From assembly GCF_013155545.1 (NCBI RefSeq), contig NZ_JABJVV010000011.1:1-64000 (forward strand): 64,000 bases of DNA, given 5' to 3'. Source of the DNA: Caenimonas soli (GTDB lineage: Bacteria; Pseudomonadota; Gammaproteobacteria; Burkholderiales; Burkholderiaceae_C). A program made the position numbers and the translations under genes. Shown in pieces: positions 4,078-11,298 of this stretch (positions are counted from its first letter, which is position 1; each line of letters opens with the position of its first letter). The notes beneath the pieces are model-generated. The model was not told the DNA's origin, made no database searches, and worked only from the letters and a program-made list of their open reading frames with translations.

Positions 4078-4413
4078 ATGCCGAAGCCGAAAGCTGCGAT
4101 CCAAAAAACAGTTGCAAAACCAGCTGTCGCGAGGGCGGCGCAACGTTTCGCCAGCGTATTCGATGCACTGGCGGACACGCCACAAGAGGCGGCAAATATG
4201 CGCGCCCGCGCCCAGCTCGTTCGTCAGGTTACCGCTGCAATCAAGGAAAAAGGTTGGACTCAAGCAGTGGCTGCGGAGCATTGTGGAGTTACCCAGCCTC
4301 GGATCAATGACCTGATCAACGGTCGTATCTCTAAATTTTCCTTGGACGCTCTCTTCAACATCGCATCAGCAATTGGTGAAGTCAATGTTGAGTTGGAGCT
4401 TGAGCACGCCTGA
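4078..4413 (+). CDS. XRE-family HTH protein, HigA-type antitoxin without a visible toxin
   Basis: A 111-residue protein. After a basic N-terminal arm (MPKPKAAIQKTVAKPAVARA) comes an XRE-type helix-turn-helix at about residues 45-95: KEKGWTQAVAAEHCGVTQPR, INDLINGRISKFSLDAL. This layout is typical of the antitoxin half of HigBA/Gp49-like modules, where the toxin gene normally lies immediately upstream. Here the upstream neighbour is a SnoaL-like gene only 116 bp away and no toxin-sized frame was found on either side. It is either an orphan antitoxin or a stand-alone regulator, possibly of the peptide locus that begins 435 bp later. That last link is speculation. Confidence 0.75.
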   Translation: MPKPKAAIQKTVAKPAVARAAQRFASVFDALADTPQEAANMRARAQLVRQVTAAIKEKGWTQAVAAEHCGVTQPRINDLINGRISKFSLDALFNIASAIGEVNVELELEHA

Positions 4414-4848
4414 GGGGCTCTAGCTGTTGAAACATCTGAGCGAGCGGCAACGCCGGACCATCCTGGGCGACAGCTTGGCGGCGCGCAGTTCCGCTGACTA
4501 GATCGACGCGCTGGCGCAAGCCCCGCGCTCTTGTACGGCAGTGCACAGTACTTCTTGCAGTTTCAAGCAACTTGAAATCTGTGTAACGACAATCTCTGCA
4601 GTAGTCGAGTTGCATGCGCGGACGGCCCGGGGCGGCCGACACTCTCGTCCCACCCGGCGACCGCACTTCTTTGCCCGGCGCCGGACCGGACTCGTCGCAT
4701 TACAGTTCCTAACGCTGCTGAACCAGCCTGCCGCGATGTACTACAGCCTCAAGCTGTACTGCCTGCGACACGGTACCGGCTGACGAGCCGGGGAAGGAAG
4801 GAAGTTTGTACTGCCCCCGCGCTACTTTTGTCGCGATTAGGAGTTCAC
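4414..4848. other. Gene-poor interval upstream of the peptide locus
   Basis: No supported gene was found in these 435 bp. A short in-frame stretch after 4425 (translating as LKHLSERQRRTILGDSLAAR, then a stop) might be a gene remnant but matches nothing I recognise. A small hairpin CCGGC-TGACGA-GCCGG lies at 4776-4791. The promoter of the peptide operon should be here, but I see no strong -35/-10 pair or sigma-54 site. Confidence 0.4.
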
Positions 4849-5070
4849 ATGCGCAGCTTAAGGATTGAAGAACTGGAACTGGTTGCTGGCGGCGTCCCAG
4901 GCGAGGGGGGCGAACACTCACAATCAACGAAGAACAACGGCCTGGGGAATCTCGATCAAGGAGCTCCCGGCGGCTCCTTCCCCAACAACGGAGCCGAGAA
5001 CAACGTCAACGGAGCCTCGACTGGAAACCCGCCCGGTAGCGGCAACTTCCCCGTGGTCCCCAACCTCTGA
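4849..5070 (+). CDS. Double-glycine leader peptide precursor (microcin/RiPP-like)
   Basis: A 73-residue peptide. The start at 4849 is set by TAGGAG 6 nt upstream and gives the leader MRSLRIEELELVAGG. Against the double-glycine consensus it has Leu at -12, Glu -8, Leu -7, Val -4 and Gly-Gly at -2/-1, a good substrate for a C39 peptidase. The predicted mature core is 58 residues (VPGEGGEHSQ... to ...NFPVVPNL). By count it has 13 Gly, 11 Asn (three NN pairs) and 7 Pro, with no Cys, Trp or Tyr and no hydrophobic helix. It therefore resembles neither pore-forming class II microcins nor lanthipeptides. The adaptor, C39 exporter and a candidate modifying enzyme follow on the same strand. Activity (toxin, signal or surface peptide) is unknown. 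Confidence 0.8.
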   Translation: MRSLRIEELELVAGGVPGEGGEHSQSTKNNGLGNLDQGAPGGSFPNNGAENNVNGASTGNPPGSGNFPVVPNL

Positions 5071-5120
5071 GCCCTCGTACTCAAGGGCACGCTCGGTGTT
5101 GTCTTCATCGGGTGTGAGCG

Positions 5121-5151
5121 GTGCGGGTTCCGTGAGTTACCGGGCCCGCAC
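5121..5151 (+). promoter_or_regulatory. Stem-loop between the peptide gene and the export genes
   Basis: GTGCGGG (5121-5127) pairs with CCCGCAC (5145-5151) across a 17-nt loop, with no T-run after it. A separate perfect palindrome CTTGACGTCAAG lies at 5163-5174, just before the adaptor start. The hairpin could act as a partial terminator or processing site that makes more peptide mRNA than transporter mRNA, as is usual in such operons; this role is inferred from position only. Confidence 0.35.
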
Positions 5152-5179
5152 ATCAACCTCAACTTGACGTCAAGCTCGA

Positions 5180-6574
5180 ATGGCAGATCAAGCACATCTT
5201 CCCGCTGCACCGAGTGTGGCCGACGGCCAGGTCGACCGTTGGGTGCCGGCTGTCGCCGCGCGCACCGACGTCGAGCCCGGGAGCGCGGACTTGCGCCTGT
5301 TCCGCTCGGAGGTGCTGGAGGCGCGGCAGACGCAATGGCTCGGCACCGTGATGCTGGCGCCGCGGGCTTCATTCCGGCTGTTCACGCTCTTCGGTCTGGT
5401 CGCCGCCGCGGCGATCATCGCGCTGCTGTGCTTCGGCGAGTTCACGCGCACGGCGCGCGTCAATGGCTGGCTCCTGCCACAGGAGGGCGTGGTCCGCGTG
5501 CAGGCCCCGCGCCCAGGCATCGTCGGAAGTCTCGACGTCAAAGAGGGCGCCCAGGTGCACAAGGGCGATCGCCTGTTGACGCTCTCCGACGAACTGCAAA
5601 GCGCGCGCCTCGGACCCACGCAAGCCCAGATCACGCAGCGGCTCAGCGAGCGACGCGCCAGCATGACTGACGAGCGCAGCCAGCAACAGCGCCTGCTCGC
5701 CCAGCAGGATCGCGCGCTGGCCAATCGTGTGGCTGCCCTGCGCTCCGAAGAGGAACAGATCGAGCGCGAGATCGGCCTGCTTCGCCAGCGGGTCGAGATC
5801 GCCGTCCGCGCCGCCGCGCTGCACGCCCAGCTGCACGCCGATGGCTACCTATCCGAAATGCGCCTGCAGCAGGCGCAGTCCGAGCTGCTCGAACAGCGGG
5901 CACGGCTCGCCGCGGCCGGGCGCAGCCGGCTCAGCGCGGCGCGCGAGCGCATGAACATCGAAGCCGAGCGCGCCGACCTGCCGCTGAAGCTGGGACGCGA
6001 CACAGCGCTCCTCGATCGCGGCATCGCGGAACTCGAGCAGCAACGCGCCGAGGCCGAAGCGCGGCGCGAGATCGTCGTCGTCGCACCCCACGACGGCACG
6101 GTGACTGCGATCCATGCCGTACCGGGCGCAAAAGCCGATGCGGGCACACCGCTGTTGACCATCGTGCCCCCGAACACCCGACTCGAGGCGCACCTTTACG
6201 CCCCGAGTCGTGCCATCGGCTTCGTGCGCGCCGGGCAGCGAGTGCAGCTGCGTTACCAGGCCTTCCCGTACCAGCGCTTCGGTCACTACGAAGGCGTGGT
6301 TGCGGCGGTCTCGCGGGCCGCGTTGAGCCCGGCTGAACTGCCGGCGCAGTTGGCCGGGCTCACGAGCGTGACCGGAGGCGCGGCCGGTGCCGCGGCAGAG
6401 CCGATTTATCGCATCACGGTGAGCCTCGCCAGCCAGACCGTCACGGCCTACGGCGCGAAGACGCCGCTGCAGCCGGGAATGACGCTGGAGGCCGACGTGG
6501 CGCTCGAGCGGCGGCGCCTGTTCGAGTGGATGCTCGATCCCTTGTACGCCGTGACGGGCGCGCAGCGCGGATGA
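5180..6574 (+). CDS. HlyD/CvaA-type periplasmic adaptor of a peptide exporter
   Basis: A 464-residue membrane fusion protein. A cytoplasmic N-terminus is followed by one membrane segment near 67-90 (LFTLFGLVAAAAIIALLCFG), then a biotinyl-lipoyl half (VQAPRPGIVGSLDVKEGAQV). A long Arg/Glu/Gln-rich coiled coil (about 135-300) follows, then the second lipoyl half (VVVAPHDGTVTAIHAVPGAK) and a C-terminal beta domain. This order is that of CvaA/RaxA/HlyD adaptors, which join an inner-membrane ABC exporter to an outer-membrane TolC-like channel. No TolC gene is nearby, so a housekeeping channel is probably used. Its stop overlaps the start of the exporter gene by 4 bp (ATGA), indicating translational coupling. 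No clear ribosome site precedes 5180. Confidence 0.88.
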   Translation: MADQAHLPAAPSVADGQVDRWVPAVAARTDVEPGSADLRLFRSEVLEARQTQWLGTVMLAPRASFRLFTLFGLVAAAAIIALLCFGEFTRTARVNGWLLPQEGVVRVQAPRPGIVGSLDVKEGAQVHKGDRLLTLSDELQSARLGPTQAQITQRLSERRASMTDERSQQQRLLAQQDRALANRVAALRSEEEQIEREIGLLRQRVEIAVRAAALHAQLHADGYLSEMRLQQAQSELLEQRARLAAAGRSRLSAARERMNIEAERADLPLKLGRDTALLDRGIAELEQQRAEAEARREIVVVAPHDGTVTAIHAVPGAKADAGTPLLTIVPPNTRLEAHLYAPSRAIGFVRAGQRVQLRYQAFPYQRFGHYEGVVAAVSRAALSPAELPAQLAGLTSVTGGAAGAAAEPIYRITVSLASQTVTAYGAKTPLQPGMTLEADVALERRRLFEWMLDPLYAVTGAQRG

Positions 6575-8751
6575 ACCCACTCGACAAACTCGCGACCAGC
6601 TGGGGGTCCCGGCTGCCGATGGTCATGCAGACCGAGGCTGCCGAATGCGGCCTTGCATGCCTGGCGATGATCGTCGGCTACCACGGCCAGCCCTGCGAGA
6701 TCACCGAGCTGAGGCGGCAGCTGTCGGTCTCGATGAAGGGCACCAGCCTGAAGCACCTGGTTGGCATGGCCGAGCGGCTCGGGTTCGCCGCGCGCCCGGT
6801 GCGCCTGGAGCTGGATGAACTGCGCCAGTTGAGCACGCCGTGCATCCTGCATTGGGATCTGCACCACTTCGTCGTGCTCGCCAAGGTCACGGACGACGCG
6901 ATCGTGATTCACGACCCTGCGGTCGGGGTGCGCCGCCTGCCGCTGGGCGCGGTGTCGAGGCATTTCACGGGCGTCGCGCTCGAGTTGACGCCGGTGGGCG
7001 AACTGGCGCCAGCCAAGGAGCCGGCGCGCGTTCGCCTGCGCTCGCTGGTGGGCCACGTGGTCGGGCTGCGGCGCTCGCTCGGACAGTTGTTTGCTCTCGC
7101 CCTGGCGATCGAGGTGTTCGCGGTCATGAGCCCGCTGTTCATGCAGTGGGTGGTAGACCATGCCCTGGTCAGCGCCGACCGCGATCTGCTGCTCGTGCTG
7201 GCGCTCGGCTTCGGCATGCTGCTGCTGTTGCGAACGACGGTCTCCGCCATGCGCGGCTGGATCGTGATCGTTCTTGGCGCCTCGGTGAAGGTGCAGGGCC
7301 GAACCAACATCTTCAGCCACATGATCAACCTCCCATCGTCGTACTTCGAGGCGCGTCACCTCGGTGATGTGGTGTCGCGCTTCTGCTCGCAGGACACCAT
7401 CCTGCAGGCGATCACCACCGACGTCGTCGAGGCGGTTCTCGACGGTCTGCTCGTGAGCGTGACGCTGGTGATCATGTTCGTGTTCGCGCCGACCCTGACC
7501 TTCGTCGCCATCGCCGGCGCGCTCCTGTACGGCCTGCTGCGCTGGGTGTCCTACACGCCGTTGCGCCATGCCTCGTCCGAGGCGATCGTCTGGGGCGCGC
7601 GGCGCGACAGCCATGTGCTCGAGACGCTGCGCGGGGTCAAGACGATCAAGCTGTTCAATGGGCAGGACAGCCGGCGCGCCCACTGGATGAACCTGCTCAT
7701 CGAAGCGACGAATCGCCAGTTGACAACGCAGAAGCTGCAGTTGCTGGTTCGCACTGCCAACGGGCTGCTGATCGGCATGCTCGCCATCGTGGTGGTGTGG
7801 CTGGGGGCGAATCTGGTGCTCGAGAAACAGATGTCGATCGGCATGCTGCTCGCTTTCATTGCCTACAAGGACCAGTTCTTCAGCCGCGTCAGCAACCTGA
7901 TCGACCGCGCTGTCGATCTGACGATGCTGCGGTTGCACGCCGAGCGGCTGGCGGACATCGCGCTCACGAAGCCCGAGCCGCGCGGCGCCGCCGCCGACGC
8001 CTCCGAGACCGCGCGGCCGGTGGCGATCGAGGTGCGCAACCTGCGCTTTCGCTACAGCGAGACCGACCCCTGGGTGCTCGATCGCGTGAGTTTCAGGATC
8101 GAGCCCGGCGAGACGGTGGCGATCGTTGGCGCATCCGGATGCGGCAAGACGACGCTGCTCAAGATCCTGACGAGCCTGTTGACGCCCACCGAAGGCGAAT
8201 TGCTGGTCGACGGTCAGTCGCTGGCGAGTCTGGGCGCGACGCGCTGGCGCTCGATGATCGGCGTGGTCATGCAAGACGATCAACTGTTCGCTGGATCGGT
8301 GGCCGACAACATTTGCTTTTTCGCCGACCAACCCGACAAGCGCAGCATCGAAGACTGCGCGCGCCTGGCCGCTTTGCACGACGAGATCGCCGCCATGCCG
8401 ATGGGCTACCACACGCTGATCGGCGACATGGGAACCGTGCTGTCGGGTGGCCAGAAGCAGCGCGTGCTGATCGCGCGCGCACTGTATCGCCAGCCCGGTG
8501 TGCTGCTGCTCGACGAGGCGACGAGCGACCTCGACGTCACCAACGAAAAGCTGGTCAACGCGGCGATCCGCGCCACGCGGGTGACGCGCGTCATCGTCGC
8601 GCACCGGCCCGAGACGATCCGCTCGGCCGATCGCGTGATCAACCTCGACGAGATCGGCGGCCATGGTGTGGCGAACCTGTCCGTGCTGCAGGGCGCCGGC
8701 CGGGCCGCCGTCGGACACACCGGACCCGCGGTGCAGATCGGGGCGGCATGA
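6571..8751 (+). CDS. C39 peptidase-containing ABC exporter (PCAT)
   Basis: A 726-residue processing exporter. The N-terminal C39 peptidase (about 12-140) keeps its whole active site: Gln20 and Cys26 in QTEAAECGLACL, His99 in DLHHFVVL and Asp115 in IHDPAV. It should cut the double-glycine leader of the peptide encoded at 4849. Six membrane helices follow (about 160-440), then a complete nucleotide-binding domain with Walker A GASGCGKTTL, signature LSGGQKQRVLIARAL and Walker B VLLLDEATSDLD. Length matches CvaB/LagD-type PCATs. It sits in the inner membrane with the HlyD-like partner encoded just upstream. Its stop overlaps the next start by 4 bp, so the fused enzyme downstream belongs to the same operon. 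Confidence 0.93.
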   Translation: MNPLDKLATSWGSRLPMVMQTEAAECGLACLAMIVGYHGQPCEITELRRQLSVSMKGTSLKHLVGMAERLGFAARPVRLELDELRQLSTPCILHWDLHHFVVLAKVTDDAIVIHDPAVGVRRLPLGAVSRHFTGVALELTPVGELAPAKEPARVRLRSLVGHVVGLRRSLGQLFALALAIEVFAVMSPLFMQWVVDHALVSADRDLLLVLALGFGMLLLLRTTVSAMRGWIVIVLGASVKVQGRTNIFSHMINLPSSYFEARHLGDVVSRFCSQDTILQAITTDVVEAVLDGLLVSVTLVIMFVFAPTLTFVAIAGALLYGLLRWVSYTPLRHASSEAIVWGARRDSHVLETLRGVKTIKLFNGQDSRRAHWMNLLIEATNRQLTTQKLQLLVRTANGLLIGMLAIVVVWLGANLVLEKQMSIGMLLAFIAYKDQFFSRVSNLIDRAVDLTMLRLHAERLADIALTKPEPRGAAADASETARPVAIEVRNLRFRYSETDPWVLDRVSFRIEPGETVAIVGASGCGKTTLLKILTSLLTPTEGELLVDGQSLASLGATRWRSMIGVVMQDDQLFAGSVADNICFFADQPDKRSIEDCARLAALHDEIAAMPMGYHTLIGDMGTVLSGGQKQRVLIARALYRQPGVLLLDEATSDLDVTNEKLVNAAIRATRVTRVIVAHRPETIRSADRVINLDEIGGHGVANLSVLQGAGRAAVGHTGPAVQIGAA

Positions 8752-10556
8752 GCGCTGCACAACCATTTTCGACGCCTGGCCGCTTGACCGACGACGCTGT
8801 CGCACGCTGGAGCGCCTGGGACCGCTTCGTCGCGGCAACGCCCGATGCGGGATTCATGCAGTCATCGCCGTGGGCGCAGTTTCGGGCGCGCGCCGGATAC
8901 GAGCACTTCGCCGTCACGCTGAAGGACGGCGACGCGATTGTCGGTGGTGCGCTCGTTGGCAAGTGGACCTACGAGCCGGGGCACTGCTTTTATTACGTGC
9001 AGGAAGGGCCGGTGCTGCCCGCCGATGAGGCCGACGCGGCCGAAGTGTTCGACGCCGTGCTCGCCAGCATCGAACGCCATCGCAAGGCCGAGGATGCGAC
9101 GGTCAGCCACCTGCGGATCGAGCCGCGCTGGCAGCACTTGCCGGACTTCGTGCGTGGCTTTCGGCCGGCGGCGCTTTCAGAGCGCTACTCCGAGCCACGC
9201 GATACGCTGTGCATAGACCTGCGCCCCAGCGAAGAAGAGATCCTCGCGCAGATGAAGCCCAAGGGCCGCTACAACGTTCGCGTTGCGCGCAAGCACGGCG
9301 TCACGATCGTCAGGGACAACTCGTATCAGGGCTTGATCGACTTCATGCGTATTCAACGCTGCACGCTTGTTCGCAAGGGCATGAAGCCGATGACGCCGGT
9401 CTACTTCCGCGCAATGCTCACCGAGCTTCTTCCGCGGGGCCAGGCCTCGCTGTTCTTTGCCGAGCACCGCGGGCGGCGACTCGCCACCGCGCTCGTCGTC
9501 ACCTTCGGCCGGCGCGCAACCTACCTCTACGGCGGCTCGCTCCTGGCGCAGCGGCGCGTGATGGCGCCGTCCCTGCTTCATTTTGAAATCATGCGCAGGG
9601 CCAAGGCGTCGGGCTGCGAGTGGTACGACTTGTGGGGCGTCGCGCCATTCGACCAGCCGGACCATGCCTGGCAGCAGATCAGTGAATTCAAGCGCAAGTT
9701 GGGCGGCGTCGAGGTCCAGCTCGTGCCGACGCTCGACTACGTCTACGACGCCGCCGCCTACGACCAGTACCGGATTGCCGAAAGCGGCAGGGCGACGTCT
9801 CCGCGGACCATGGAGCGGCCGCCGGCGTCCGCACCACCGAGTGATACGAGCGATACGAACCGCGCCCTGGCGAGCGTCAGGCTGTTCGATCCGGCTGTGC
9901 CGCGCCGCGAGTTCAACGCGCTGCGGCGTGCCTTTCCGGAAAGCCATTTCCGGCGCCTGCTGCAGGAGGGGTTTCGCTTCTACCAGACGGCTTTCTGGTA
10001 CCCGCTCGATCGCGGGCCGGAGAACGTTTTCGAATCGATCATCAACAGCCTGCGGCCGCTGGCACAGCCGTCTGCGAGCGTGATCGGCGTCGAGTGGTGG
10101 TTCAGCGTAACGCTGACGAACTCGACGCCGCAGTGGTTGCTGCCGTGCCACTTCGACCGCAACGACCTCGATGAACAGGACTTGCAGAAGATCAGGCACC
10201 CTGAAACGGCGAGCGTGCTGTTTCTCACCTCGCCACCCTACGGCGAGCTGGTGGTGACCGATCAGGTGCTCACCGACAAGGGGGCACACCCGCAGCAGCC
10301 GAAGGACATGCGTTTCGTCAGCCCGAAAGCAAACCGGTACGCCACCTTCCCCGGCCACCTGTACCACGGCGTCATTGGGCGCATGTGGCGCCCGGTGAAG
10401 GATACGAAGCTGCGCGTCGCGATGGCCGTGAACTGGTGGACCCAGAAACCGGAAGCCGCTTACCTCAACGACTCACGCGCATGCATGGCCGCGTTGCAAC
10501 TCACAACTCCTTCGCCGCCTTCTGGATGCACTCCACCAACTGCTGCGTGGGCATAG
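8748..10556 (+). CDS. Fusion of FemA/FemX-like aminoacyltransferase and 2OG-Fe(II) oxygenase
   Basis: A 602-residue protein with two unrelated enzyme domains. Residues about 15-345 are a FemAB-type double-GNAT fold: MKPKGRYNVRVARKHGV, the RATYLYGGS strand, YDLWGVAP and FKRKLGGVEVQL. This family moves an amino acid from aminoacyl-tRNA to a peptide amine. After a low-complexity linker (about 350-385), residues 390-580 carry a double-stranded beta-helix oxygenase signature: His468-x-Asp470 in CHFDRND, distal His540 in LYHGVIG, and Arg556 in KLRVAMAVNWW as the likely 2-oxoglutarate ligand. The gene overlaps the exporter by 4 bp. I infer that it modifies the Asn/Pro-rich peptide before export, by adding an amino acid and/or hydroxylating Asn, Asp or Pro. 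Residues after about 584 lie on a LysR remnant and are probably not native. Confidence 0.8.
   Translation: MSAAQPFSTPGRLTDDAVARWSAWDRFVAATPDAGFMQSSPWAQFRARAGYEHFAVTLKDGDAIVGGALVGKWTYEPGHCFYYVQEGPVLPADEADAAEVFDAVLASIERHRKAEDATVSHLRIEPRWQHLPDFVRGFRPAALSERYSEPRDTLCIDLRPSEEEILAQMKPKGRYNVRVARKHGVTIVRDNSYQGLIDFMRIQRCTLVRKGMKPMTPVYFRAMLTELLPRGQASLFFAEHRGRRLATALVVTFGRRATYLYGGSLLAQRRVMAPSLLHFEIMRRAKASGCEWYDLWGVAPFDQPDHAWQQISEFKRKLGGVEVQLVPTLDYVYDAAAYDQYRIAESGRATSPRTMERPPASAPPSDTSDTNRALASVRLFDPAVPRREFNALRRAFPESHFRRLLQEGFRFYQTAFWYPLDRGPENVFESIINSLRPLAQPSASVIGVEWWFSVTLTNSTPQWLLPCHFDRNDLDEQDLQKIRHPETASVLFLTSPPYGELVVTDQVLTDKGAHPQQPKDMRFVSPKANRYATFPGHLYHGVIGRMWRPVKDTKLRVAMAVNWWTQKPEAAYLNDSRACMAALQLTTPSPPSGCTPPTAAWA
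10501..10554 (-). pseudogene. Remnant of the last 17 codons of a LysR-type regulator
   Basis: Read on the minus strand it gives MPTQQLVECIQKAAKEL plus stop, almost the C-terminus of the intact LysR protein at 20884 (TQQLVECIRKAAKEL). The DNA at 10501-10556 and 20884-20939 differs at only 5 of 56 positions by eye. Nothing of the rest of a LysR gene remains: the GntR gene ends 14 bp away. The remnant lies antisense inside the 3' end of the FemX-oxygenase gene, so a deletion or rearrangement joined the peptide cassette to an older LysR tail. Confidence 0.7.
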
Positions 10557-10569
10557 CCCGCTGGAGCGC

Positions 10570-11298
10570 CTAAAGGTCTACAGCAGTTGCCTGCGGTCGT
10601 TTCGCCGGCTTCGCGCCCGGCGCTGCGTCGCCGGCATCCAGCAGTTTCTGGTAGTTCTTGCGAAGGATGACGCCGGCGTAGTACACATGCTCGCGCATCA
10701 GTTGCTCTGCCCGTGCACTGTCACGGGCGACAACGGATTCGACGATTCGGTGGTGGTCGCCGTGAGAGCGCAGGATGACCGCGTGGTCGTCCCACAGGAT
10801 GATCCGGTCGGAGGCGAACGGAATGTTCTGCGCCTGCACCGCAAAACGCGTGACCCACGGGTTACCGGAGGCCTCCAGCAAGGTGTCGTGGATCGTGACG
10901 TTCATCTGCTGGTAGGGCTCGTGGTCCTCGGGACGTAGCTCGCCGCCGCCCAGGATGCGGTCGCCTTCCGCCAAGCTCGCCTTCAGCCGCATGGTCTGCG
11001 CTTCGGTGAGGCCGTGCACCGCGGCACTGCGGCACGCCAGCCCTTCCAGCACCGAGCGCACCTCGTACGCGGCGACTATCTCCTCCATGTCGAAGGCGCG
11101 AACCAGGTAGCCGCGCTTGGGCTGGTGATCGATCAGGCCCTCGCTTGCCAAAGTGCCGAGGGCAGCGCGGATGGGCGTGCGCGACACGCCCAGTTGCTCC
11201 GCCAGGGGGATTTCCTCGAGCCGCATACCGGGCCGCATCCGGCCATGGAGGATCCAGTCGCGAAGCGTGTCGGTGACGTTCTGGGCTAGTGTTTGCAT
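10570..11298 (-). CDS. GntR-family (FadR subfamily, FCD domain) repressor
   Basis: A 242-residue regulator. The N-terminal winged helix (about 5-70) has PLAEQLGVSRTPIRAALGTL and ASEGLIDHQPKRGYLVRAF; the C-terminal FCD ligand domain (about 80-215) has the Asp/His metal-site pattern including HDTLLEASGNPW and HGDHHRIVESVVARD. FadR-type proteins usually bind an organic acid and then leave their operator. The gene is divergent from the SDR-Liv operon that starts at 11457, and the 158 bp between them hold TATAC-centred palindromes, so autoregulation and control of that operon are likely. Its 3' end points at the peptide-export cassette. Confidence 0.88.
   Translation of the reverse strand: MQTLAQNVTDTLRDWILHGRMRPGMRLEEIPLAEQLGVSRTPIRAALGTLASEGLIDHQPKRGYLVRAFDMEEIVAAYEVRSVLEGLACRSAAVHGLTEAQTMRLKASLAEGDRILGGGELRPEDHEPYQQMNVTIHDTLLEASGNPWVTRFAVQAQNIPFASDRIILWDDHAVILRSHGDHHRIVESVVARDSARAEQLMREHVYYAGVILRKNYQKLLDAGDAAPGAKPAKRPQATAVDL

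Follow-up and report, generated by a model that had tools for sequence, protein, structure and literature searches.

We asked what a FemABX-type transferase fused to an oxygenase-like domain does in a gene cassette for peptide export, as found in the analyzed stretch of Caenimonas soli DNA (64,000 nt, C3:1-64000 of genome G000, hereafter the window; the genome comprises 5.64 Mb in 51 contigs). On balance, we consider it probable from the sequence comparisons that the cassette resembles the systems for ribosomally synthesized and post-translationally modified peptides (RiPPs), and that it makes, modifies and exports a peptide with the FemABX-oxygenase fusion as its tailoring enzyme. Modification of the peptide core is supported because core type and enzyme set change jointly among related cassettes.

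The cassette is composed of four plus-strand genes at 4849-10556, recognized from open reading frames (ORFs) and Pfam matches: precursor, HlyD adaptor, C39-ATP-binding cassette (ABC) exporter and FemAB fusion. The gene pairs HlyD/C39-ABC and C39-ABC/FemAB fusion overlap by 4 bp, and the whole fusion gene covers 8748-10556 (+). Its parts are listed below; dN/dS is the ratio of nonsynonymous to synonymous substitution rates.

4849..5070, +, precursor peptide of 73 amino acids: leader MRSLRIEELELVAGG and a 58-residue core containing STKNNGLGN
5180..6574, +, HlyD-type periplasmic adaptor (Pfam HlyD_3, E 6.2e-20)
6571..8751, +, C39 peptidase/ABC exporter with C26/H99/D115, Walker A/B and LSGGQ
8748..9764, +, FemABX (aminoacyl-tRNA-dependent transferase) domain (PF02388, E 9.8e-36), K315 aligned to the FemX catalytic Lys stretch
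9765..9896, +, fast-evolving linker (dN/dS 0.76 and 1.2 versus two relatives)
9897..10508, +, orphan C-terminal domain, probable 2-oxoglutarate (2OG)-Fe(II) oxygenase (Ox), with H468-x-D470 ... H540 ... R556
10509..10556, +, C-terminal extension and stop, absent in two relatives

The leader is 15 residues long, of the double-glycine type and ends in GG; AGGAG is located 5 nt upstream of the precursor ATG, and the core is acidic and rich in Asn and Gly. The exporter matches Peptidase_C39 (E 1e-37), ABC_membrane (E 8e-37) and ABC_tran (E 6e-35), and we take C26, H99 and D115 to be the C39 catalytic residues. The adaptor scores 150 bits against type_I_hlyD, below the cutoff of 208.65. An earlier note on this DNA had described a four-gene, one-strand cassette with 4-bp overlaps, a C39 exporter with intact Cys/His/Asp and a FemA/FemX-like transferase. 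The gene arrangement is borne out by ORFs, Pfam and its recurrence in two other genomes of the same genus, the three exporter residues are present, and the transferase matches both PF02388 and profiles of FemX structures.

Next, we analyzed the two domains of the fused enzyme. The FemABX domain scores 123.9 bits against PF02388 (cutoff 24). A profile built from six sequences, the window included, matched FemX structures along the entire domain as well as at the Lys motif, with E from 1e-21 to 4e-18 (6snr E 1.2e-21, 4ii9 7e-19), a FemA structure at E 2e-6, and 9wqy/9wqw, named 'aminoacyl-tRNA-dependent peptide synthase', at E 1e-9. The FK of the FKxx motif (K315) aligns with FK in 6snr at high and in 4ii9 at low alignment confidence, and K315 is invariant across all six aligned FemAB sequences, again including the window. 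According to the accessible part of a review, Lys305 of FemX-Wv is the sole reactive residue near the substrate (PMC12945691). We rejected the possibility that the FemAB domain is a housekeeping peptidoglycan enzyme, since no other PF02388 protein was found in G000 or G949; one further weak match occurs in G168.

No Pfam or NCBIfam model matched the last 226 residues of the fusion. Across three genomes of one genus, H468, D470, H540 and R556 do not vary, whereas the nearby H537 is replaced by Gln in G949; we presume that H468/D470/H540 form the HxD...H metal triad and that R556 is the distal Arg of a 2OG oxygenase. The domain matches phrog_274 (PHROGs v4) with E 4.5e-4. PiuC of phage P-SSM2 matches the same region with E 1.3e-8, and because PiuC is a 2OG-FeII_Oxy_3 protein (Pfam) we read phrog_274 as a 2OG-type profile. 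The label of this profile, 'DNA endonuclease V', looks wrong, and we rejected it on account of the PiuC match. The fused 2OG oxygenase claimed earlier is thus favored by the invariant HxD...H...R residues and by phrog_274, and is lowered to a probable one by the missing Pfam and NCBIfam matches. These sequence features make it quite likely that the C-terminal domain is a 2OG oxygenase.

In order to see how widely the fusion occurs we scanned 60 genomes of the same genus. Four of them gave a match (E up to 1e-6), and three of these four hold the fusion. The fusions of G939 and G949 are 86% and 80% identical to that of the window; the fourth match, G906, is a distant FemAB with 31% identity. L006, a Ramlibacter metagenome-assembled genome (MAG), and G939 have contigs of equal length (21,592) and were taken as one locus, and therefore three distinct fusion loci were counted, all of which carry the fusion in the same cassette. 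G949 is a single-contig genome with an intact cassette, while the HlyD and ABC genes of the L006 MAG look broken or mis-assembled. By eye, the outer flanks are dissimilar among the fusion loci. The fusion of the window has about 15 C-terminal residues more than its two relatives, and a search of viral contigs found no relatives of the whole fusion.

Pairwise dN/dS values (Nei-Gojobori, own script) are 0.17 for the FemABX domain, 0.16-0.24 for Ox, 0.16 for the exporter gene and 0.27 for HlyD. For the leader they are 0.06 and 0.14 against two relatives (15 codons only), and for the core 0.27 (L006) and 0.53 (G949; dS near saturation). Both enzyme domains are therefore under purifying selection, and the linker and core drift. 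The GG-ending leader is better conserved than the core, as expected for precursors of C39 double-glycine export. A sequencing or assembly artefact was rejected on the grounds of three loci, one of them in a single-contig genome, and selection on both domains. Although the cores of the window and G949 share only 31% identity, the motif TK(x0-2)NNGxGN is kept; it arose in 0 to 1 of 20,000 shuffles per core (four cores), counts that have to be read in the light of the motif having been picked after the alignment was seen.

We then compared FemAB loci beyond the fusion. A contig scan of genomes yielded 38 loci, three of them (L006, L007, L008) at least 62% identical and 35 at 26-41%; none of these 35 showed a C39, HlyD, P0007-family or Ox match at 1e-4, with some contigs being only 4-7 kb long. 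On plasmids, 31 other records had FemAB matches, at 34% identity or less or with identity not listed. Seven close loci (window, L006, L007, L008, G168, Methylobacterium nodulans pMNOD02 and G949) form a clade with support 100/100 and mostly little resolution of its inner order, in a tree with six of the 35 distant loci as comparison. They come from the genus and family of the window, Steroidobacter, Methylobacterium and one Candidatus Eisenbacteria MAG. At six of the seven, HlyD and C39-ABC genes are located on the same strand (broken genes in L006), and at L007 (Candidatus Eisenbacteria) an M50/HlyD export-type protein takes the place of the C39 exporter. A precursor and an export-type gene accompany FemAB at all seven close loci in two phyla. 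Fusion homologues mostly away from exporters, which the earlier note had named as an argument against it, were not what we observed: all three fusion loci are in the cassette and six of the seven close FemAB loci lie beside C39. The precursor at L007 (L007:4181-4351), adjoining the M50-HlyD protein, P0007 and FemAB, combines an atypical leader (LEQRIAPGG) with a core of GSK/GSN/GSH repeats. Close FemAB genes were found in 2 of 250 genomes of the family (own included; a third match, G223, is a distant FemAB with 32% identity) and, with the FemAB profile, in 1 of 399 genomes of the order (own). The cassette system is rare and scattered.

All four non-fused close FemAB loci share a protein of about 320 residues, which we named P0007 family, and their precursors have Ser/Lys-repeat cores; at the fused loci (window genome, L006, G949) P0007 was not found. 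Among 72,556 plasmid records it occurs in four (M. nodulans, Paracoccus, Rhodobacter, Blastomonas), each time with C39-ABC and HlyD alongside. The P0007-family genes are:

L004:5119-6078
L005:1310-2293
L007:6928-7965
L008:3506-4408
L046:8926-9903
L047:8941-9891
L048:1619-2593

The family has no Pfam match above cutoff. Its profile matches the free serine kinase 5x0j over the GxHR region at E 0.02, and a Foldseek search with a model of pLDDT 57 returned ParB, Noc, PadC, SerK, SbnI or Srx in 22 of the 25 top rows, none of the matches being below E 0.06 and TM-scores being low throughout. From this model a ParB/Srx fold is likely, and a kinase function is a guess. A survey of the ParB fold names SerK and SbnI, and its main text contains neither the word FemAB nor the word peptidase (PMC12704722). 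The P0007 profile also matched 2 of 398 phylum genomes, both from one genus, where no C39 or HlyD is nearby and only an ABC ATPase of generic type lies at a distance of 3-4 kb. It matched 0 of 8 genomes and, in the class of G880, 0 of 279, a count that is uninformative as it had no positive control. Two P0007 relatives on viral-class contigs (L061:600-1571, L062:5016-5945) lie near terminase-like genes and without exporters. The family is not tied to such cassettes everywhere.

Next, we compared core type and enzyme content in ten cassettes (window, L006, G949, G168, L008, L004, L007, L046, L047, L048). P0007 is present in seven, all with Ser-repeat cores (KSKSK, GSKGSK, SNSNS), and none of the three cassettes without P0007 has a Ser-repeat core. 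FemAB is likewise present in seven, all with [Ser/Thr]-Lys in the core. Of the three where it was not found, two have no [Ser/Thr]-Lys and one, from Blastomonas, has many, which makes this second link weaker. NNGxGN precursors occur at four loci, namely the three fusions and a second Blastomonas precursor, and all four have a 2OG-type gene or domain. In the other six cassettes, the genes that had been annotated or scanned revealed none (L007 and L008 scanned in part, flanks of L005 by eye). On plasmid pBSY18_3 of Blastomonas sp. RAC04 (L048:1334-3698) a P0007-family gene and the gene of a 2OG-Fe(II) oxygenase supported by Pfam lie between two precursors, one with Ser/Lys repeats and one of the NNGxGN type, and the C39-ABC and HlyD genes adjoin on the opposite strand. 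This oxygenase is not alignable with the Ox domain (BLASTP E 4.8). Enzyme set and core type covary among the cassettes.

In a midpoint-rooted tree of the exporters with 11 rows, which leaves out L006 and L007, the fusion loci fall within the P0007 group; two of the eight inner branches are supported at the strict level and the remainder at 81-91 bootstrap. The exporter of Blastomonas forms a long branch of unsure placement. Among plasmids, only Paracoccus, Rhodobacter and M. nodulans have exporters more than 60% identical to that of the window, the next being at 55%. The fusion represents a derived branch, found in one genus, of a larger modular family of cassettes whose other members have P0007 and Ser-repeat cores. 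These sequences are most simply explained if P0007 and the Ser/Lys core disappeared from the fusion lineage, which acquired the oxygenase domain and the NNGxGN core.

For the working of the cassette we propose that the precursor is recognized via its double-glycine leader and that the fused enzyme acts on the core in the cytoplasm, prior to C39 cleavage and export. The FemABX domain would transfer an amino acid from aminoacyl-tRNA to the core, most likely to the side-chain amine of the lone Lys in STK-NNGLGN; hydroxylation of a residue in or near NNGxGN would fall to the C-terminal domain. The C39 domain would then cleave after GG and the ABC/HlyD pair would export the product, with a TolC encoded elsewhere assumed to complete the export. 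Across the family, tailoring may follow core type, with P0007 (ParB/serine-kinase-like) belonging to Ser repeats, FemAB to [Ser/Thr]-Lys and the 2OG oxygenase to NNGxGN. We infer the peptide as substrate, the modified residues and both catalytic activities from gene content and sequence. The cassette would work like a RiPP system, its class membership being putative. The earlier claim that the fused enzyme decorates the core is strengthened by the way in which enzymes and core types vary jointly, and as to activity it stays a prediction.

Several observations weigh against modification of the core by the fusion. The core of the window has a single Lys and most core positions are not conserved. 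Relatives of Ox beyond the genus were not found in Pfam, the PDB, plasmids, phages, viral contigs or sampled genomes: 299 phylum genomes gave only the own genome, and 274 class genomes gave the own and one fragment (E 0.008, internal stop), which was left uncounted. A two-sequence AlphaFold model of Ox has a pLDDT of 39.5, and its best Foldseek match (E 0.73) revealed nothing relevant. In Blastomonas, the second case of NNGxGN paired with 2OG, the exporter is divergent (41%) and FemAB was not found; four P0007 relatives are located away from such cassettes; and few independent events of joint change can be counted because all three fusion loci belong to a single lineage. From the poor model, the missing Pfam and NCBIfam matches and the weak PHROG match it could be argued that FemAB modifies the peptide while the C-terminal domain is no active oxygenase and binds substrate or serves structurally, recruiting the NNGxGN core. 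We regard this as improbable in view of the HxD, distal His and Arg that are invariant in three genomes, unlike H537, and of the separate 2OG oxygenase that accompanies the Blastomonas NNGxGN precursor.

The main rival is that the fusion is an immunity factor, altering the peptidoglycan of the producer while a bacteriocin or microcin is exported unmodified. Its position fits this idea, as the FemAB gene is the last one, after the exporter, and no second PF02388 gene was found in the genome; the exporter has many plasmid relatives (1081 records with E no higher than 1e-80), presumably including genera known for microcins. There is also a precedent, which the earlier note had left aside and which counts against core modification: Lif and Zif are FemABX-like immunity proteins encoded beside a secreted antibacterial protein (PMC8538875, seen in part). 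The cases named in the accessible part of that source act on Gram-positive cross-bridges and alter the cell wall of the producer, and an oxygenase domain is not mentioned there (PMC8538875). In the Lif/Zif type a FemABX gene lies beside a peptidoglycan hydrolase bacteriocin, whereas the candidate exported product here is a 58-residue peptide. A peptidoglycan role would leave the fused oxygenase-like domain and the co-occurrence of P0007 and Ser repeats in the same clade unexplained, and we consider immunity unlikely. FemAB might also act on another target, such as a lipid, a small molecule or a protein N-terminus, with the peptide being a signal or structural component merely encoded alongside. 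Several antibiotic pathways do include FemX-like enzymes whose substrates are small molecules, as stated in the available part of PMC12945691, and the match to 9wqy/9wqw agrees with such a role. With FemAB kept beside a precursor and an export-type gene at every close locus, we hold this to be very improbable.

Core modification by the fusion could be part of something larger, namely an undescribed modular class of secreted ribosomal peptides whose tailoring modules would each recognize a single feature of the core. P0007 would phosphorylate Ser in (G)SK or SN repeats, the FemX-type enzyme would aminoacylate Lys from tRNA and the 2OG oxygenase would hydroxylate NNGxGN. The Ser/Lys-repeat products would then be polyelectrolytes by analogy with diatom silaffins, which are phosphorylated and Lys-modified, and in the fusion lineage oxygenase and NNGxGN core would have replaced kinase and Ser/Lys core. 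We regard such a class as a doubtful proposal.

Among known systems, class II microcin/C39 (peptidase-containing ABC transporter, PCAT) export is similar in its adjoining double-glycine leader, C39-ABC exporter and HlyD adaptor. In contrast to it, the window adds the FemABX-oxygenase fusion and an acidic Asn/Gly-rich core, with Ser repeats in relatives, and no separate immunity gene was recognized in its cassette. TIGR03796 (NHLP-type RiPP export) is the best NCBIfam model of the exporter but remains below cutoff (479 bits, cutoff 853 bits), and the precursor matches no Pfam or NCBIfam model. At the gene level, as in RiPP systems, a precursor gene adjoins the gene of a predicted modifying enzyme. 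With the known FemABX transferases (FemX, FemA, VlmA, DhpH-C, Orf11) the domain shares the whole-domain profile match and the Lys motif; it differs from them by its place in a peptide-export cassette, its fusion to an oxygenase-like domain and a host in which no other PF02388 gene was found. FemABX enzymes act on amines without ATP. LanB-like aminoacyl-tRNA enzymes, for which we propose a shared logic in that aminoacyl-tRNA extends or decorates a ribosomal peptide, differ by C-terminal addition with ATP, according to the accessible part of PMC12945691. In the literature searched, which left most subscription papers outside, we found no paper on FemAB with a double-glycine peptide and no description of the combination of FemAB, oxygenase and C39 exporter, so that the earlier claim of no described class with this enzyme combination is uncontradicted there. 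Papers on FemAB together with RiPPs dealt, by title, with bacteriocin producers, bacteriocin immunity, lysostaphin or lipid II amidation only.

Upstream of the cassette, two further elements are common to the three fusion loci:

4572..4604, +, box TTGAAAyCkGyGTAACsACA..CTCkGC, candidate promoter/operator (upstream alignment)
4765..4779, +, box GCGACACGGTACyGG, candidate regulatory site with one variable base

No sigma-70 consensus was found in 4300-10800, and the window contains no tRNA and no RNA family at the gathering threshold. The cassette is flanked by an HTH_37 antitoxin-like gene (Pfam) and, by eye, by catabolic and transport genes of ordinary kind. The antitoxin-like gene (4078-4413) is located directly upstream, with no toxin partner recognized by eye, and has no match at L006 or L057. 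A second strong C39 exporter of G000 (C49:151729-152115, L079) has TolC-, HlyD- and foldase-like genes nearby by eye and no adjoining PF02388 gene. Downstream of the M. nodulans cassette, a CHRD and RTX-repeat protein (L004:18475-19857) is a possible second type I secretion substrate. On the Paracoccus (L046:13320-15576) and Rhodobacter (L047:13445-15552) plasmids, genes for an 'ATP-binding protein' (sensor-kinase-like by eye) and a response regulator follow the exporter and overlap its end, and regulation by the exported peptide is possible there.

In the accessible part of a 2026 review, the aminoacyl-tRNA enzymes that act on ribosomal precursors are of the LanB and PEARL types (PMC12945691). 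If our reading is true, the FemABX fold would enter ribosomal peptide modification, and the fusion would be a natural pairing of aminoacyl-transferase and oxygenase for one peptide. The small set of cassettes would allow enzyme content to be compared directly with core sequence, and the P0007-type family is flagged as a candidate peptide Ser kinase.

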